The notes beneath the pieces were generated by a model that saw nothing but the letters and a program-made list of their open reading frames with translations, did no database searches and was not told the origin of the DNA. A stretch of DNA of 51,560 nucleotides from Chitinophaga pinensis (GTDB taxonomy: Bacteria; Bacteroidota; Bacteroidia; Chitinophagales; CAMDFR01), in NCBI GenBank assembly GCA_945860705.1, contig CAMART010000020.1, positions 1 through 51,560 on the forward strand, written 5' to 3'. Made by a program: the position numbers and the translations under genes. Of the stretch, positions 2,385 through 51,560 are shown piece after piece (the first letter of the stretch is position 1; each line of letters begins with the position of its first letter).

Positions 2385-2496
2385 TCAAAAATTATATATA
2401 TTTGAAAGTATATGCGAAACTCTATAAGCAAAAACATGCGCCAATCTACCCAAAAAATGGTGTGATTGGCGCAACAGAGTTGCGCCAATATATAAG
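2385..2496 (+). repeat. attI-like leader repeat, copy A, at the recombinase-less locus
   Basis: This is one of three related copies in the window; the others follow the recombinase at 48386-48491 and 48557-48640. It contains a TATATTTG box (2397-2404) resembling a Bacteroidota -7 promoter, shared in position with copy C. Next comes GCGCCAAT (2438-2445) paired with ATTGGCGC (2465-2472). A second hairpin follows with an 11-bp stem, ATTGGCGCAAC, loop AGA, GTTGCGCCAAT (2465-2489). It ends TATATAAG, exactly where cassette 0 begins. By comparison with copy B it should be the recombination site into which cassettes were inserted, and possibly also their promoter. Function is inferred; repeat and hairpins are seen directly. 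Confidence 0.7.
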
Positions 2497-2685
2497 ATGG
2501 CAAAAATAAAAATACCGCAATTCAATCTTTCTTTGAAAGATTTATGACTTGCAATTTTTGCCATTGGATTTTGCATTAATCCAAGTATTTTTACTTCTGC
2601 CATCAGGCACATTTGTAAAATACTAGGCTTATTTGTTATCATACTTTTTGAAAATAAAAAGTACTTCACAAATCTGCAAAATCCA
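2497..2685 (+). mobile_element. Cassette 0: 189-bp geneless or microORF integron-like cassette with divergent attC
   Basis: The unit starts with ATGGCAAAAAT (2497-2507), whose exact reverse complement ATTTTTGCCAT lies at 2554-2564 as the left box of its closing palindrome. The palindrome arms are TGGATTTTGCA (2565-2575) and TGCAAAATCCA (2675-2685), 11 bp perfect, and weaker pairing continues inward. The right end TCTGCAAAATCCA resembles the right ends of the two long attC-like sites (TAGCTGCAAAACG). The conserved AAC/GTT triplet is replaced by TGG/CCA, so this is a divergent site. The only forward frame is 16 codons (2497-2547) starting at the first base; whether it is translated is unknown. 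A 94-codon minus-strand frame crosses the hairpins and is not credible. Confidence 0.6.
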
Positions 2686-4601
2686 TTAAGGGCAAGCTTG
2701 AACGAAAATTGCCCAATTGGTTAAACAATTAAAAACAAAACATGAAAAAGAAAAACTTACTAATGGCAGCAATTGCAATCTTTGGATTTGCAACAATTAG
2801 CATGGCTCAAAATGTTCGAGCTTGGGGTACTTATTACACAGGTACCGGACAAGTATGGCCGAACGGAGAAGATAGAGGACAGGCCTGTATTACCGATGCC
2901 GCTGGCAATGTTTACATGGTTGGGACCACCAATTCAAATTCAGATATAGCAACAGTAGGAGCGCATCAAACTATTTGTGCCGGGGGGGACACGATTGGTG
3001 GTTTCAGTGGTACTGATGCCTTTTTAGTAAAGTTTAATTCAAGTGGAGTTCGACAATGGGCTACTTATTACGGAGGGAGCGAATGGGATTATGGAATATC
3101 TTGCGCTATTGACGCTTCCGGCAATGTTTATATGATTGGATCTACAAGTTCCACATCAGGTATAGCCACGGCAGGAGCCCATGAAACTACAGTTAATGAC
3201 GGCTTTTTAGTAAAGTTTAATTCAAGTGGAGTAAGGCAATGGGGCACTTATTTCGAAGGTAATGGTAATGCCTGCGCTACAGATGCTTCCGGCAATGTTT
3301 ACATAGTTGGATTAACAAATTCTACTTCAGGCATAGCCACAGCAGGGGCGCATCAAACTGTGATGTCGGGCAGTGGTGACGCTTTTTTAGTAAAGTTTAA
3401 TTCAAGCGGAGTAAGGCAATGGGGGACTTATTTTGGAGGGCCTTTCAATGGTGGCAGCGCTAACGAAACGGGAATATCCTGCGCCACCGATGCTTCAGGC
3501 AATATTTATATGGTGGGAAAAACACCGTCTACTTCAGGTATAGCCACTGTAGGAGCGCATCAAACAGCTGGTGGAACTCAATTTTTTGACGCTTTTTTAG
3601 TAAGGTTTAATTCAACTGGAGTAATACAATGGGGAACTTATTACGATGGTTTGGGAGATACACAACCAAATTCATGTGCTACCGATGCATCTGGCAATGT
3701 ATATATGGCGGGACAAGTATTCCAGGAGCTACTTCCTGATTCAGGCATATCCACACCTGGGGCTCATCAAACCACTTATGGTGGGGGTTTCACTGACGCT
3801 TTCTTAGTAAAGTTTGATCCAAATGGAGTAAGGCAATGGGGAACTTATTACGGAGGTAGCTCAGTAGAAGAGGGGACTTCCTGCGCTATTGATCCCTCTG
3901 GCAATGTATACATTGCTGGACATACAGGTTCAACTACTGGTATAGCTACAGCAGGAGCGCATCAAACTGTCTTTGGAGGTGGTGGTTTAGACGGCTTTTT
4001 AGTCTGTTTTAACTCAAGCGGAGTAAGACAAAGCGGCACCTATTATGGCGAAGGTTTTGTAAGCGGATGCGCTTCAGATGCTTCAGGCAATGTTTACATG
4101 GCGGGGATTACACAATCTAGTTCGGGCATAGCCACAGCAGGAGCGCATCAAACCGCAAATGGGAATAGTGGTTACAACGATGCTTTCTTAGTAAAATTTA
4201 GTGGCATAAGTGTGGGTATTAATGAAACTATAAATGATAAATTATTTACAATTTACCCTAACCCTACCCAAAGTATAGTCAATGTACAAGCTGATGTCAA
4301 ACTTATTGGTTCTGCATACTCTATTCATGACAACACAGGCAAAGTAGTTTTATCGGGAACAATAAATTCTGAAAACATTAGCGTGGATTTAGGGAATTTA
4401 GCGGCAGGTATTTATTTATTCAATGTAGGAGAAAACGTGAAACAGACATTTAAAGTGATTAAGGAATAAGCCAGCCCTTAACAGCACCTACCCAAAAGGC
4501 GGGGTTTGGTGTTCCAAAGACAGTTTTGTGGTTAATCAAACATTAGTTTTTCAAATCAAATTTTGTGGAAAAAGTCCCGCCCTTCGGGTAGCTGCAAAAC
4601 G
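2686..4601 (+). mobile_element. Integron-like gene cassette carrying the SBBP surface protein
   Basis: The unit begins with TTAAGGGC (2686-2693). Its reverse complement GCCCTTAA is the left box of the attC-like palindrome at 4474, five bases after the stop codon of the only gene. Complementarity extends further with two mismatches (TTAAGGGCaaGCTT against TTAAGGGCtgGCTT). Start box, single gene and terminal palindrome whose R'' complements the start is the geometry of an integron cassette with crossover at G/TT. Base composition is visibly more GC-rich than the flanks. The base before the start is A, not G, because it comes from the divergent attC of cassette 0. Confidence 0.75.
2742..4469 (+). 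CDS. Secreted SBBP-repeat beta-propeller protein with T9SS type A sorting domain
   Basis: A 575-residue exported protein. Residues 1-22 are a signal peptide (KK, hydrophobic core, SMAQ). Residues ~25-490 hold about seven to eight repeats of the SBBP type, each with DASGNVYMVG, TSGIATAGAHQT, DAFLVKFNSSGVRQW and GTYYGG; such repeats fold as propeller blades. The last 75 residues are a T9SS type A sorting domain (TIYPNPTQS, then NLAAGIYLFNVGENVKQTFKVIKE), predicting export across the outer membrane and surface attachment or release. It is the only gene of its cassette. The DNA repeats are close enough for blade number to vary by recombination. Ligand or enzymatic role is unknown. Confidence 0.9.
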   Translation: MKKKNLLMAAIAIFGFATISMAQNVRAWGTYYTGTGQVWPNGEDRGQACITDAAGNVYMVGTTNSNSDIATVGAHQTICAGGDTIGGFSGTDAFLVKFNSSGVRQWATYYGGSEWDYGISCAIDASGNVYMIGSTSSTSGIATAGAHETTVNDGFLVKFNSSGVRQWGTYFEGNGNACATDASGNVYIVGLTNSTSGIATAGAHQTVMSGSGDAFLVKFNSSGVRQWGTYFGGPFNGGSANETGISCATDASGNIYMVGKTPSTSGIATVGAHQTAGGTQFFDAFLVRFNSTGVIQWGTYYDGLGDTQPNSCATDASGNVYMAGQVFQELLPDSGISTPGAHQTTYGGGFTDAFLVKFDPNGVRQWGTYYGGSSVEEGTSCAIDPSGNVYIAGHTGSTTGIATAGAHQTVFGGGGLDGFLVCFNSSGVRQSGTYYGEGFVSGCASDASGNVYMAGITQSSSGIATAGAHQTANGNSGYNDAFLVKFSGISVGINETINDKLFTIYPNPTQSIVNVQADVKLIGSAYSIHDNTGKVVLSGTINSENISVDLGNLAAGIYLFNVGENVKQTFKVIKE

Positions 4602-4607
4602 TTCTAG
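4474..4607 (+). repeat. attC-like site closing the SBBP cassette
   Basis: About 134 bases long. The left arm GCCCTTAAC AGCACCTACCC with GGCGGGG (4474-4505) pairs with the right arm CCCGCCC ... GGGTAGCTGCAAAACGTT (4577-4603). Arms pair imperfectly: AAC-A-GCACCTACCC against AACGTTTTGCAGCTACCC leaves extra unpaired bases on one side, as in true attC sites where extrahelical bases set strand choice. AACAGCACCTA and TAGCTGCAAAACGTT are identical in the attC at 48816-48950. Expected crossover is after G4601. From 4608 to 4828 I see no gene, hairpin or further cassette, so this is the last cassette at the locus. Confidence 0.8.
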
Positions 4608-46581: not shown

Positions 46582-47253
46582 ATGGCTCACAAAAAAGGGC
46601 AAGGTAGCTCAAAAAACGGTAGAGAATCACATAGCAAGAGACTTGGTGTAAAACTATTTGGTGGTCAAACTTGCATAGCAGGAAACATCATAGTTCGTCA
46701 GAGAGGAACAAAATATAAATTAGGTACTGGTGTAGGATTAGGAAAAGACCATACTATCTATGCATTAATAGATGGTGTAGTTACTTTCAAAACTAAAGCA
46801 GACGAAAGATCTTGGGTATATGTATTGCCTGCAGGTGAGGCTAATGCTCCAAAAGCTAGCACTCCTGTAAAATCTGCAGCTAAAGCTGTAAAAGTAGCTA
46901 CTCCAAAAGTAGAAAAAACTGCTGATGCAACTGCAGCTCCTAAAGCAAAAGCAACTGATGCATTATCAGAAGCAAAAGCTATCATGGGCAAAAAAATAAC
47001 TCAAGATGACTTGAAAATAGTAGAAGGAATCGGTCCTAAAATTGAGGAATTATTCCACAATGAAGGTATCAAAACTTGGGAAGCTCTTGCAGGACTTACA
47101 TTTGAAAGATGCAAAGAAATAGTAATGACAGGTGGTGATAGATATGCTATGCATGACCCAACTACTTGGCCAAACCAATGCCAACTAGCACACGAAGGCA
47201 AATGGGCTGAGCTAAAAGAACTACAAGAAAAATTAGACGGAGGTAAAGAATAA
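46582..47253 (+). CDS. rpmA: Ribosomal protein L27 with extra C-terminal helix-hairpin-helix domain
   Basis: Residues 1-85 are a normal L27 ([36 protein letters not shown]), a large-subunit protein near the peptidyl transferase centre. An Ala/Lys/Pro-rich linker follows (86-135), then an extra domain (138-223). It starts [19 protein letters not shown] (140-158), a helix-hairpin-helix, and ends [31 protein letters not shown]. Such HhH tails occur on ribosomal and other proteins in Bacteroidota; here the fusion makes L27 more than twice its usual length. The tail's role is unknown; nucleic-acid binding is inferred. Second gene of the operon, then a terminator. Confidence 0.95.
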
Positions 47254-47347: not shown

Positions 47348-48385
47348 ATGAAGTGGGAAGCAAAAGCAATAAAACATAATAAAGAGAAAAGAATAGCCAT
47401 CTATTTTGAAAAGGATGCAACTCTCATAGCTCGTGTAAAAAAACTCACAGGTGTTCGCTGGAGTGCAACACTGAAGGCTTGGCACGTACCAGATAATCCT
47501 GAAAATAGAGAACGGTTTAAAATAGCACCCGAATTAATATTGAACGACAATCATACAGCACATATCAAAAAATTTGAACAATGGCTCTATTCAAAAAGAT
47601 ATAGTGCCAGTACTATAAAAACATATAGTGAAGCATTAAAATCATTTCTACTATTTTATAATGATATAAGTATCGAAGCTATAACAAATGAAGCTGTAAT
47701 CAAATATAATAATGAATTTATACTCAAAAATGAACTTTCCTCCTCGTACCAAAATCAAATAGTAAATGCAATAAAGCTATTTTTCAGTAGCATAAAAGCA
47801 AAAACTATAAATCCTGAACTGATTCACAGACCTAAACGAGAAAAACTACTGCCCAATGTACTTAGTAAAGAGGAAGTAAAACAAATACTCGAAGCACATA
47901 ATAATATAAAACACAAAGCAATGCTCTCGCTCATATATAGTTGTGGACTCAGGTGTGGTGAATTATTGAACCTAAAACCTATACATATAGATAGCAAACG
48001 AGGAATAGTACTGATAAAACAAGCTAAGGGTAAAAAGGATAGAATAGCCCCATTAAGTATTAAAATACTTGATTTATTGAGAGTTTATTTTAAAGAGTAT
48101 AAACCTGAAAAATATCTTTTTGAAGGGCAAAATGTAGGCACACCATATGATGCAAGAAGTTTACAATTGGTGTTGAAACAAGCATTAGAAAAAACTAAAA
48201 TCACTAAACCTGTGACACTACATTGGCTCAGGCATAGCTATGCTACACATTTGCTCGAATCTGGCACCGATCTTAGGTATATACAAGAGCTACTTGGTCA
48301 TAAAAGCAGTAAAACTACCGAAATATATACTCATGTAAGTACCAATAGTATAAAACAAATAAAAAGTCCTTTTGATGATTTGTAA
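47348..48385 (+). CDS. Tyrosine recombinase with extra N-terminal domain, putative cassette integrase
   Basis: A 345-residue tyrosine recombinase; start ATG at 47348. Residues 1-60 form an extra domain (RIAIYFEKDATLIARVKK, GVRWSATLKAWHVPD) absent from XerC/XerD. A SAM-like core-binding domain spans about 68-150 and the catalytic domain 165-345. All catalytic residues are present: Arg202 (SCGLRCGELL), a Lys in AKGKKDR (227-232), His292 and Arg295 (HWLRHSYATHLL), His318 (LLGH) and Tyr327 (EIYTHV). The tail SPFDDL resembles the SPLDxL end of integron integrases. There is no insertion of the IntI type between the Lys region and HxxR. It is followed directly, same direction, by attI-like repeats and cassettes, so it is the likely cassette recombinase. 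Confidence 0.9.
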   Translation: MKWEAKAIKHNKEKRIAIYFEKDATLIARVKKLTGVRWSATLKAWHVPDNPENRERFKIAPELILNDNHTAHIKKFEQWLYSKRYSASTIKTYSEALKSFLLFYNDISIEAITNEAVIKYNNEFILKNELSSSYQNQIVNAIKLFFSSIKAKTINPELIHRPKREKLLPNVLSKEEVKQILEAHNNIKHKAMLSLIYSCGLRCGELLNLKPIHIDSKRGIVLIKQAKGKKDRIAPLSIKILDLLRVYFKEYKPEKYLFEGQNVGTPYDARSLQLVLKQALEKTKITKPVTLHWLRHSYATHLLESGTDLRYIQELLGHKSSKTTEIYTHVSTNSIKQIKSPFDDL

Positions 48386-48556: not shown

Positions 48557-48640
48557 TACGAAACAAAATACAATAAAAACCTTCGCCAATCTACCCAATA
48601 TTGGGTGGATTGGCGAAACTCAGTTTCGCCTATATACAAG
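48557..48640 (+). repeat. attI-like leader repeat, copy B, abutting cassette 1
   Basis: TTCGCCAAT (48582-48590) pairs with ATTGGCGAA (48609-48617) around the inner palindrome ACCCAATATTGGGT (48593-48606). A second hairpin GGCGAAACT, C, AGTTTCGCC follows (48612-48630). Then TATATACAAG ends in the G that precedes cassette 1. Its upstream part (GAAACAAAATAC...AAAAAC) aligns with copy A. Repeats A, B and C keep the second hairpin while its bases change on both sides, which points to a structure under selection. Confidence 0.75.
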
Positions 48641-48944
48641 TTATGTGCTATGCTAAAAGAATCGCACGTATTTTATCAATTTTATATTTTGGTATTGGTT
48701 CTGAAAACCATTTTCCCCCAAAGAAATCATTACCGCAATTAGGGCAGTGTTCATTGTCGTGGTATGCTCTACGTTTAAAGTGGTTTTCAGGTATCTCTTT
48801 AAAACAAGAAGCACAGCACATAACAGCACCTAAACTAGATGGCTGGATTTGTTCTTCTTTTGAAGGTTTATCTTTTAAATTATCCATTGTGTTTTTAATT
48901 AAATTTAGAGGTGTTAATCAGCCACCTCGTTTAGCTGCAAAACG
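48641..48944 (+). mobile_element. Cassette 1: integron-like cassette with a zinc-ribbon microprotein
   Basis: Starts TTATGTGC after G48640; its exact reverse complement GCACATAAC with that G is the left box of the attC-like site at 48816-48824 (match 14 of 15 when extended: GTTATGTGCTaTGCT). Unit length 304 bp. The only gene is on the minus strand, so no leader promoter can express it. Crossover sites at both ends read G/TT. Confidence 0.8.
48648..48821 (-). CDS. 57-residue zinc-ribbon microprotein
   Basis: With the start at 48821 the protein is 57 residues. CxxC knuckles (CCASC at 2-6; CPNC at about 26-29) form a putative zinc ribbon, followed by GNDFFGGKWFSEPIPKYKIDKIRAIL. The start ATG lies in the reverse complement of the left box (GTTATGTGC), and the stop codon TAG overlaps the cassette's start box. 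A start 22 codons upstream at 48887 is also open, but those codons would lie inside the attC arm. Such small zinc-ribbon proteins are common cassette cargo; function unknown. Which start is used cannot be settled here. Confidence 0.55.
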   Translation of the reverse strand: MCCASCFKEIPENHFKRRAYHDNEHCPNCGNDFFGGKWFSEPIPKYKIDKIRAILLA

Positions 48945-48950
48945 TTATCG
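48816..48950 (+). repeat. attC-like site closing cassette 1
   Basis: 135 bases. The left arm GCACATAAC AGCACCTAAAC with GATGGCTGGATT (48816-48847) pairs with the right arm AATCAGCCACCTCGTTTAGCTGCAAAAC (48916-48943) before GTTATCG. AACAGCACCTA and TAGCTGCAAAACGTT are identical to the site at 4474-4607, 44 kb away. Unequal arm bases (A versus GTTTT) recall extrahelical bases and unpaired spacer of true attC sites. Confidence 0.85.
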
Positions 48951-48980
48951 GCAACCCTAAAAGACCACACTAACAACAAG

Positions 48981-49568
48981 ATGACAAGCAAATATTTTGA
49001 TAAATTATTAGCGGAAATTTCAAAAACGGGCAAACCTAATATTGAAGACAACGAATATATTAGTCAGTTTTTTATACCTATAAATTCGACAAGAAATTCA
49101 ATTTTAGAAGAACAAGATAAAATTCCAGAATACTTGTATTTCATAAATTCGGGTTTTATGCGACTATTTTACTATGACCAAAACGGAGAAGAACAAACAA
49201 CTTTTTTGTGTTCGCAAAATGGTTTCATTGCATCATTCTCATCATTGATAAATCAGACCAAAGCGACAGAAAATGTAGAGTGTATTACGGATTGTGAATT
49301 ATTGAAAATTTCTTTCGTAAATGCAAAACAACTTGTAGACAAAAGCGTAATTTTCAAAAACTTTTTTTTATTAATGTTTGAAAAGTCTATTTCATTAGCA
49401 ACATTAAGAGCCAATGACTTAGCATCATTAAATGCTGACCAACGCTACCAAAAAATGATAGACCAACAAGCACACTTTATTCAAAATATTCCACTACAAT
49501 ACATTGCTTCATATTTAGGAATAAAACCACAAAGTCTGAGTAGAATTAGAAAACAGGCCATTAAGTAA
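48981..49568 (+). CDS. Crp/Fnr-family transcriptional regulator
   Basis: A 195-residue protein with an N-terminal cyclic-nucleotide-binding-like domain (roughly 25-120: FFIPINSTRNSILEEQDKIPEYLYFINSGFMRLFYYDQNGEEQTTFL) and a C-terminal winged helix (ASYLGIKPQSLSRIRKQ, about 175-191). It lacks the conserved phosphate-binding RxAT pattern, so it may bind no cyclic nucleotide; its ligand is unknown. It is 65 bases before the hydroxylase-family gene and probably controls it. Base composition matches neither flank closely. It is first gene of cassette 2. Confidence 0.88.
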   Translation: MTSKYFDKLLAEISKTGKPNIEDNEYISQFFIPINSTRNSILEEQDKIPEYLYFINSGFMRLFYYDQNGEEQTTFLCSQNGFIASFSSLINQTKATENVECITDCELLKISFVNAKQLVDKSVIFKNFFLLMFEKSISLATLRANDLASLNADQRYQKMIDQQAHFIQNIPLQYIASYLGIKPQSLSRIRKQAIK

Positions 49569-49633
49569 CATTTGTGAAGTAGAATAAAATTTTGTTTTTT
49601 GACATTTGCATTTCATTTAGCAACATTAATAAA

Positions 49634-50410
49634 ATGGAAACATTGCAAGAAATCTTAAAACAACTCCCCACAGCATTTGGACAGTCCTTAATGAATTACG
49701 GGATTATCGTAATTATTTATTTAGTAGTGTGGAAACTATTAAAAAAACGACTTAAAAATTGGAGAATACAATTGAAAGAACGTGTTGATGCAAATCAAAT
49801 CAAGTCAGAATTGTTAAACAGTCTCTTTACTTTAATGGTAAGTACCATATTTGTACTTATAATTTATTCTTTAAAATCACTTGGTTACACGAAAATCTAT
49901 ACAGACATAAATGAGTATCCTAAATTCTTTGCTTATGGTGGTTTTTTTATTTTTTTGCTATTTGACGACACTTGGTTTTATTGGATACACCGACTTTTGC
50001 ACCACCCAAAAATTTTCAAGTACATACACAAAGTACACCATAAAAGTATTGACGTTAATCCGTTTACATCGTTATCCTTTCATTGGGCAGAAGCTTTATT
50101 ACTCACATTTTGGATTGTACCAGTCAGTATGATTTTTCCAATGTACGTTCCTGCACTTGGACTATTACAGATTTGGGGTTTTTTAGACAATATAAAATCA
50201 CATCTTGGATATGAATTTTTTCCAAGTTGGTGGAACAAAAGTTTCGGAAAACTAATGACATCAAGTACACATCATAATATGCACCACAGTAAATTTAATG
50301 GAAATTATGGCGTTCATTTTCGTATTTGGGACAAACTTTTTGGAACAGAATTTAAAGACTACGAAAAAACATTTGACGAAATACAAGACCGAAAAAAGGG
50401 CAGCCGATAA
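49634..50410 (+). CDS. Fatty-acid hydroxylase/sterol desaturase-family membrane protein
   Basis: A 258-residue membrane protein starting METLQEILKQLP at 49634. Three to four membrane segments carry the histidine clusters of the family: HRLLHHPK, HKVHHKSIDVNP, HWAEALLL and HHNMHHSKFNGNYGVHFRIWD. They bind a di-iron centre that hydroxylates or desaturates lipids. Such proteins often act on sphingolipids, carotenoids or sterol-like lipids; the substrate is unknown. The final codon CGA is followed by TAA, which is part of the left attC box GCCGATAAC. With the upstream regulator it may form a self-contained lipid-modifying cassette. Confidence 0.88.
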   Translation: METLQEILKQLPTAFGQSLMNYGIIVIIYLVVWKLLKKRLKNWRIQLKERVDANQIKSELLNSLFTLMVSTIFVLIIYSLKSLGYTKIYTDINEYPKFFAYGGFFIFLLFDDTWFYWIHRLLHHPKIFKYIHKVHHKSIDVNPFTSLSFHWAEALLLTFWIVPVSMIFPMYVPALGLLQIWGFLDNIKSHLGYEFFPSWWNKSFGKLMTSSTHHNMHHSKFNGNYGVHFRIWDKLFGTEFKDYEKTFDEIQDRKKGSR

Positions 50411-50443
50411 CACGGGTTCCTATGTAAAGCACCTCTGTTAGTC
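50403..50443 (+). repeat. Short attC-like site closing cassette 2
   Basis: 41 bases: GCCGATAACACGGGT, a 13-base centre, then ACCTCTGTTAGTC. TAACA pairs with TGTTA and GGGT with ACCT (one G-T pair), with a C-C mismatch between. GTTAGTC fits the R' consensus GTTRRRY except for T at position 6. It is much shorter than the 135-base sites, like the short attC class. The following 100 bases (50444-50543) hold no gene; the IS starts at 50544. Confidence 0.7.
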
Positions 50444-50543
50444 AATTAATTTTATTTCATATTTTCTTTGAAGAAAGAGCTGAAAAATCAGCCCTTGCTT
50501 CGCAGATTTTTTTTTGTTTGCATTACGAAAATAATCATATTTT

Positions 50544-51560
50544 ATTGAATTAACCATTTAGGTCGCAAATATTAATATAACTGATAGTTGAATGCAAATA
50601 GGTTGCGTTTTGGTCTATTATACTTGTAAAAAAATACAAGAATATGTTTGAAGGAATCAATAGTATCGATTTTTATGCTCAATTTCATAATGATGAAACC
50701 TGTTATAAATATTTAGCAGATTTAAAATGGAAAGATGGTTACATCTGTAAAAAATGTAAACATACTTCATATAGTAAAGGGAATTTACCCTACTATAGAA
50801 GGTGTAAGAACTGTGGCTATGATGAAAGTGTAACAGCCCATACTATGTTTCATAAATGCAAAATGGGCATACAAAAAGCATTTGTATCTATGTATGAAAT
50901 CATATCAAGCAAAAAAGGAATAGCCAGTACAACCTTATCCGAAAAAGTATCTGTCAATATAAAAACAGCATGGCTTATAAGAAGAAAGGTACAAGAAAGC
51001 ATGAAGCCTTCATGTAAAAAAAACTCCAAGAATATGTAGAGGTAGATGAGACCAGTGTAGGAGGCTATAGTGCGGGAATGCCAGGCAGAACTTTGGAAGG
51101 AAAGAAACATGCCATTGTTGCACTAGGATATGATGAACAAGGAAACTCTACTAGAGCATATGCAATGCCTATAGAAGATTTTACAAATAAGAGTTTACGA
51201 ACTATATTTGATAAACATATAGATAAAGACGCATTTGTAATGACCGATGGATTTAGAGGATATAATGCACTACATAAGGAATATAAAAATATGGATTATA
51301 AACTTTCAGAGAAAGGAAGCAATTTTGAAAAACTTCATTATCATATATTTAATATTAAAAACTGGATAAGAGGAATACATCATCAATGCTCTCAGAATCA
51401 TTTTTGTGCCTATTTAGATGAGTTCAATTTTAGATTTAACAATAGAGGTGGAGAACTACGAAAAAACATTTTCAATCACCTACTGACCCATTGTATTTAC
51501 GCAAAACCATCTACTTATTCAATGTTAATCAATAAATGCGACTTAAGTGGTTAATCCAAT
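50544..51560 (+). mobile_element. IS1595-family insertion sequence
   Basis: Inverted repeats of 24 bp match at 21 positions: ATTGAATTAACCATTTAGGT-type end at 50544-50567 and its counterpart at 51537-51560, which coincides with the window's right edge. They enclose one transposase gene. The element may continue a few bases beyond the window, and the target duplication cannot be seen. It sits 100 bases after the last cassette, outside the array. Confidence 0.8.
50644..51554 (+). CDS. IS1595-family transposase, two frames joined at an A8 run
   Basis: The first frame (50644-51039) encodes an N-terminal zinc ribbon (CKKCKHTSYSKGNLPYYRRCKNC) and helical part (GIQKAFVSMYEIISSKKGIASTTLSEKV). The second reads on at a -1 offset from the A8 run at 51016-51023 and opens LQEYVEVDETSVGGY, the first catalytic acid of ISXO2-like transposases; later DGFRGYNALHKEYK and NNRGGEL segments complete the DDE domain. 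Joined, it is about 300 residues. Either programmed -1 slippage at the A run makes the full enzyme, or one base was gained and the copy is dead. The residue after DET is Ser where Tyr is usual. Confidence 0.8.

Follow-up and report, generated by a model that had tools for sequence, protein, structure and literature searches.

The core-box consensus of integrons is RYYYAAC and GTTRRRY, and the repeats of the Vibrio superintegron (VCR) are sites of about 120-130 nt with a long variable terminal part. Published work holds the I2 helix to be necessary for single-strand recombination by integrons (PMC7790495), regards the additional domain as a defining or indispensable trait of integrons (PMC9668308, PMC8138268), and calls the selection of I2 before attC sites existed a chicken-egg paradox (PMC4792948). 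Integrons were considered rare in Bacteroidetes; the article on IntegronFinder 2.0 gives for them only cassette-less integrases at first and then one complete integron, that of Salinibacter ruber (PMC9024848). Analysis of a 51,560-nt stretch of Chitinophaga pinensis DNA (the window) and of related genomes suggests that a large Bacteroidota gene-sharing system may have been overlooked; we found no description of such a system in the open-licence literature, preprints excluded.

Judged by sequence, attC-like sites, at which recombination would take place, lie at 4480-4603 and 48822-48946, each of them closing a gene cassette. The first-pass annotation had described them as a pair with common ends, and exact copies of AACAGCACCTA and TAGCTGCAAAACGTT are indeed present at 4480-4490 and 4589-4603 and again at 48822-48832 and 48932-48946; as it had also noted, the inner arms differ in sequence and keep their pairing. 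Of the attC-type arm asymmetry that it proposed, the unpaired spacer is present (A against AAAAC), whereas fixed mismatches stand in place of bulged extrahelical bases. Folding of the bottom strands, which it had suggested, gave z values of -3.26 and -3.25 relative to shuffled sequence, with poorer folding of the top strands (-2.49 and -0.69), and the search for more sites, also its suggestion, yielded 12 in this genome with a covariance model (R1), such that the window sites are no isolated pair. A composite AACAGCACCTA/TAGCTGCAAAACGTT pattern has three copies in the 2.94-Mb genome, all forward and the third on contig C13 (21255-21377), with no matches for the reversed control; this pattern occurs in seven of the 99 genomes of the order, this genome included.

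Many further sites, about 124 nt long and arrayed in one direction, came from a generic search that asked for AAC, arms able to pair and GTT, and R1, whose E-values are rough, was built from 32 of them. The consensus fold of these 32 has 17 pairs, 15 of which show compensatory changes, with both sides altered in at least one sequence. A fixed A.C mismatch on the top strand, equivalent to a G.T wobble on the bottom strand, was found in 30 of the 32 (columns 20:111). When the sites were modelled as rebuilt on a circle, 61 of 62 had the more stable fold on the bottom strand, with a mean difference of 4.75 kcal/mol; for bare single sites, which lack the rebuilt R arm, it was better in just 97 of 134. 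In silico, these sites are thus imperfect palindromes that fold as single strands and prefer the bottom strand, as attC sites are. Sites were present in 66 of the 99 genomes of the order (R1, E<=0.001) and in 141, or about half, of 296 genomes of the phylum (E<=1e-5), the latter sample being evenly drawn, at least 90% complete and scored for few candidates per genome. Sites also have inner sequence in common. Two short sites of 52-70 nt (L072:4511-4580 and L075:3903-3954) share a similar core and are without the long terminal part.

Each window site belongs to its own cassette array (Table 1). In the first array, the leader is followed by a decayed cassette, a cassette and its site, and in the second, the recombinase is followed by a degenerate leader, the leader, cassette 1 and cassette 2.

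Table 1. Coordinates of the features of both arrays in the window.
Position	Strand	Feature	Support
2387..2496	+	second leader copy of the window; promoter-like box TATATATATTTG	
2607..2681	+	degenerate attC (24.1 bits) closing a short decayed cassette	
2686..4601	+	single-gene cassette; gene at 2742-4469 with SBBP repeats and a T9SS sorting tail	
4480..4603	+	putative attC-like site (first site) closing cassette 2686..4601	fold, covariation, R1
47348..48385	+	345-aa tyrosine recombinase; N-terminal domain of ~65 aa; C-terminal SPFD as in IntI; I2 insert absent	PF00589
48393..48470	+	degenerate leader copy just past the recombinase stop codon	
48547..48640	+	attI-like leader, dyads ending CTATATACAAG, junction G/TT at 48640/48641	
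48641..48944	+	cassette 1, start GTTATGTGC matching R'' of site 48822	read from sequence
48648..48887	-	ORF (about 79 aa) in cassette 1, containing cysteine pairs and overlapping the site	by eye
48822..48946	+	putative attC-like site (second site) of cassette 1	fold, covariation, R1
48945..50411	+	cassette 2, to R'' AAC; starts GTTATCGGCAACCC, ends GGGCAGCCGATAAC	
50409..50418	+	left attC end of cassette 2, AACACGGGTT	compared with L033 site

From exactly position 2686 on, 129 bases of the cassette show 88% identity to the first cassette that follows the recombinase in a congener (G001), a match that we count toward probable cassette exchange; first cassettes differ in three congeners. Insertion of 2686-4601 at a secondary site outside arrays, considered from a G-to-A change at 2685, was rejected given the degenerate attC and the leader just upstream. 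Cassette 2 encodes a Crp/Fnr-like regulator (48981-49568) and a fatty-acid hydroxylase (49637-50410), and its attC is apparently broken by an IS1595-family element that reaches the contig end. The transposase of this element lies in two frames (50644-51039 and 51078-51554) within 50419-51560, and its left-end stretch (50416-50450) recurs at L072:3382-3416. Other cassettes of this genome encode a GmrSD-type enzyme, HNH proteins, a Fic protein and a type III restriction-modification pair; the latter lies between a leader and a site (L073:3386-7739, G000:C1), and the GmrSD-type, HNH and Fic genes are in the C13 array. In front of the recombinase gene, 46582-47253 encodes a ribosomal protein L27 with a long C-terminal extension (223 aa in total) resembling extensions in models of L21 and NuoE.

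Movement of modules as circles predicts that the left arm of a site is complementary to the arm with which its own module begins, and in arrays this arm is part of the previous site. Consistent with this, in 62 of 77 neighbours at least 8 of 12 bases of R'' matched the R' of the previous site, with which its own cassette starts, and 48 of these 62 agreed at 10 or 11 bases. The corresponding figures were 5/132 for the site's own R', 2/56 for the next site and 3% for any other, random pair. For this comparison, 12 of 144 sites without an exact AAC or GTT core or with incomplete arms were dropped, and R1 itself covers only about 3 of the 12 positions compared. One position matched in none of the 62, an A of R' standing opposite mostly C in R''. 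The rule was repeated in six loci from five closed genomes (14/19, versus 1/30 for the own arm), where six of 37 matches were dropped for a missing core and one opposite-strand duplicate was left out. This cross-cassette match is, in our interpretation, the mark of circular cassette intermediates. Within 62 cassettes examined, the longest ORF was forward in 56 and the stop codon lay a median of 17 nt before the AAC of the site, with a median site spacing of about 740 bases.

An attI-like junction was also found. The leader behind the recombinase has dyads ending TATATACAAG and a G/TT junction, the first cassette beginning at TT, and it recurs in this genome: ten copies align to one common end point and then diverge, with one more weak and one degenerate copy beyond these. 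TT comes next in nine of the ten, followed by differing cassette starts, and the exception is the copy in the first array, where ATGGC and the decayed cassette come next. Nine of the ten also contain TATATTTG, which we take to be the Bacteroidota promoter box. By eye, R'' of the first downstream site matches the cassette start at several copies (C27, C15, C13 and C12). Another genome (G096) has six copies of its own, different leader, five of which are extra ones behind decayed recombinase C-termini of about 24-82 residues, suggesting that platforms multiply and then lose the recombinase.

The window recombinase matches NF040815 at 213.6 bits, just below the cut-off of that model, and retains the conserved residues R202, K227, H292, R295, H318 and Y327. 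It lacks the I2 insert specific to IntI: the KxKDR-to-LRHS spacing is 102 residues in five canonical IntIs, 58-69 in 102 other readable rows and 61 in the window recombinase, and TIGR02249 matches it in two pieces, skipping 179-238. Its nearest relatives by both sequence and fold are XerA and IntI; the XerA-type enzymes 5hxy and 4a8e are the closest solved ones by sequence and stand at the top of the fold lists (5hxy, Z 23.2 and rmsd 13.3 over 262 residues; IntI 2a3v, Z 21.6 and rmsd 5.3 over 263). Unlike XerA-type recombinases, however, it has an extra N-terminal domain, an IntI-like SP(L/F)D tail and linkage to a cassette array. Xer controls from six genomes formed a separate clade (SH-aLRT 100), the recombinase did not fall within the XerC/XerD clade, and a dedicated profile parts this family (about 230 bits or more, in 52 of the 99 genomes) from Xer enzymes. 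A first tree set IntI apart from the Bacteroidota recombinases, whose clade is weak (SH-aLRT 83); holding the two together was not rejected (AU p 0.277, with 72 of 104 rows).

Recombinase and sites are physically linked. By hand count, 47 of 50 site matches (E<=0.01) among 80 named relatives lie on the recombinase strand behind its 3' end, the other three being opposite and upstream, and the relatives include Flavobacterium, Algoriphagus, Cyclobacterium, Aquiflexum, Algibacter, Winogradskyella and Seonamhaeicola. Of 14 closed-genome recombinases that carry the N-terminal domain, ten are followed by a site on their own strand no more than 10 kb past the 3' end, where 0.10 was expected, and the other four have no site within 60 kb; in G151, an array of about 37 kb begins 1.7 kb behind the recombinase gene. 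The junction is next to the recombinase, as attI is in integrons, and lies behind the gene in most cases; for related recombinases without the N-terminal domain, in G100 and G322, the layout is divergent as in canonical integrons, and the junction precedes the gene. Co-occurrence at the genome level was moderate, with sites in 41 of 52 recombinase-positive versus 25 of 47 recombinase-negative genomes (p 0.010, dedicated profile), leaving 11 positive genomes without an R1 site; the dedicated profile separated better than TIGR02249 thresholds, which gave p 0.03-0.07. Contigs tend to end behind the recombinase, within 1.5 kb in 15 of 36 named loci (two of 36 in front) and in 13 of 26 loci of the order set (one of 26 in front; other recombinases, 7 versus 4 of 26), although this set was picked partly from contig starts. 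These breaks are suggestive of repeats and serve as side evidence. A conserved chromosomal place was considered and rejected, as rplU-rpmA beside the recombinase is not shared, with no match in loci L024-L063 and L124-L165.

Comparison with the described systems revealed both likenesses and differences. As in integrons, the sites are folding palindromes with an in silico bottom-strand bias, R'' pairs with the start of the same cassette, a leader provides a fixed G/TT junction, and cassettes of mostly one gene form same-direction arrays, those of closed genomes included. In contrast to integrons, the recombinase has no I2 insert, the R boxes are not GTTRRRY/RYYYAAC, mismatches or wobbles in the site replace bulged bases, the array lies mostly behind the recombinase 3' end and in its direction, and there are many leaders per genome. 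Site length and the long variable terminal part resemble VCR, whereas sequence, R boxes and recombinase differ. From these data, the system appears to work like an integron and yet to stand apart from the known family in two defining respects, I2 and the core boxes.

Could these nevertheless be ordinary attC sites of canonical integrons, spread as integrase-less clusters near an unrelated recombinase? The 25 of 47 recombinase-negative genomes with sites agree with such a reading, as do near-identical sites (91-97%) in other families, which travelling cassettes would give, and, of the 99 genomes of the order that were searched, one encodes a canonical IntI (G020:C40:3592-4530). We nonetheless consider it unlikely. 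No R1 site was found in that lone genome, and R1 gave no match at E<=0.01 on a canonical-IntI locus or on a class 1 integron (one chance-like match at 0.18); the I2-less recombinase has sites behind it in ten of 14 closed-genome cases, compared with 0.10 expected; and canonical core boxes are rare, GTTRRRY being present in 11 of 134 sites and RYYYAAC in nine, in a script that already demanded AAC and GTT. Weak R1 matches of 24-27 bits do occur at a Calditrichia locus (L203) that carries canonical IntI.

That XerC/XerD or another host recombinase moves the cassettes, the linked recombinase only resolving or inverting DNA elsewhere, would fit the occurrence of recombinases in the XerC/D score range in nearly all genomes, with or without sites. 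It seems very improbable because the leader is physically joined to a dedicated recombinase in several families and its copies carry recombinase 3' remnants along. Least probable, to the point that we give it hardly any weight, is that the hairpins are other dispersed repeats (REP, IS200/IS605-type single-strand ends or structured RNA) that follow genes by chance: stable strand-asymmetric hairpins behind genes and the inner sequence common between sites would suit such repeats, but they do not predict agreement of R'' with the previous R' at 10-11 of 12 bases or a common leader junction, and a search of Rfam with L077 and the window matched no family.

The reading as attC, already advanced in the first-pass annotation, is supported by the arrays, the one-gene cassettes, the cross-cassette R''/R' complementarity, the attI-like junction and the linked recombinase, and we think it very likely that an integron-like system of Bacteroidota, working still or until recently, has these sites as its attC. 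In the mechanism that we propose, the recombinase would join two GTT cores and in this way excise a circular module, and the circle would rebuild a complete R''-L''...L'-R' site, whose bottom strand would fold with the aid of the fixed G.T wobbles (top-strand A.C mismatches) and be recombined with the leader at G/TT. Genes would thereby come to lie downstream of the leader promoter in a single orientation. The unit of leader and recombinase appears to have multiplied; in extra copies the leader would persist and the recombinase decay, and these leaders may be served in trans by an intact recombinase.

A broader proposal, to which we give about even credence, is that this is a second integron class, widespread in Bacteroidota, whose recombinase never had I2, having arisen from XerA-like enzymes independently of IntI or representing a pre-I2 state. 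Folded single strands would then be handled otherwise, perhaps by an N-terminal DNA-binding domain together with the G.T wobbles, and because platforms multiply, a single recombinase may act for a large number of attI sites and of small, defence-rich arrays. The combination of folded attC-like sites with an I2-less recombinase makes the question of I2 before attC testable. In addition, the presence of sites in about half of the phylum genomes and of restriction systems in cassettes raises the possibility that a large gene-sharing and defence reservoir escapes current tools.

Finally, since the fold list of the whole model is hardly a test of the N-terminal domain, this domain was predicted alone. 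The top Foldseek rows were SMARCAL1 HARP (4o66; E 0.68, TM 0.34), the best VIA-align Z was 4.3, and a HARP profile gave E 0.15 for one homologue, none of 26 members being listed with HARP. This domain of about 65 residues has no secure relative, HARP of SMARCAL1 being no more than a lead and weak in every test. A 534-aa recombinase (L037, G005:C12, 239-1843) has apparently three tandem copies of the domain. Two closed genomes (G284 and G195) each contain several similar short recombinases of about 298 aa, some of them close together, for which the usual site placement is absent, and a MAG labelled Undinarchaeales has two recombinases of the kind described here side by side (L147:8484-11056).
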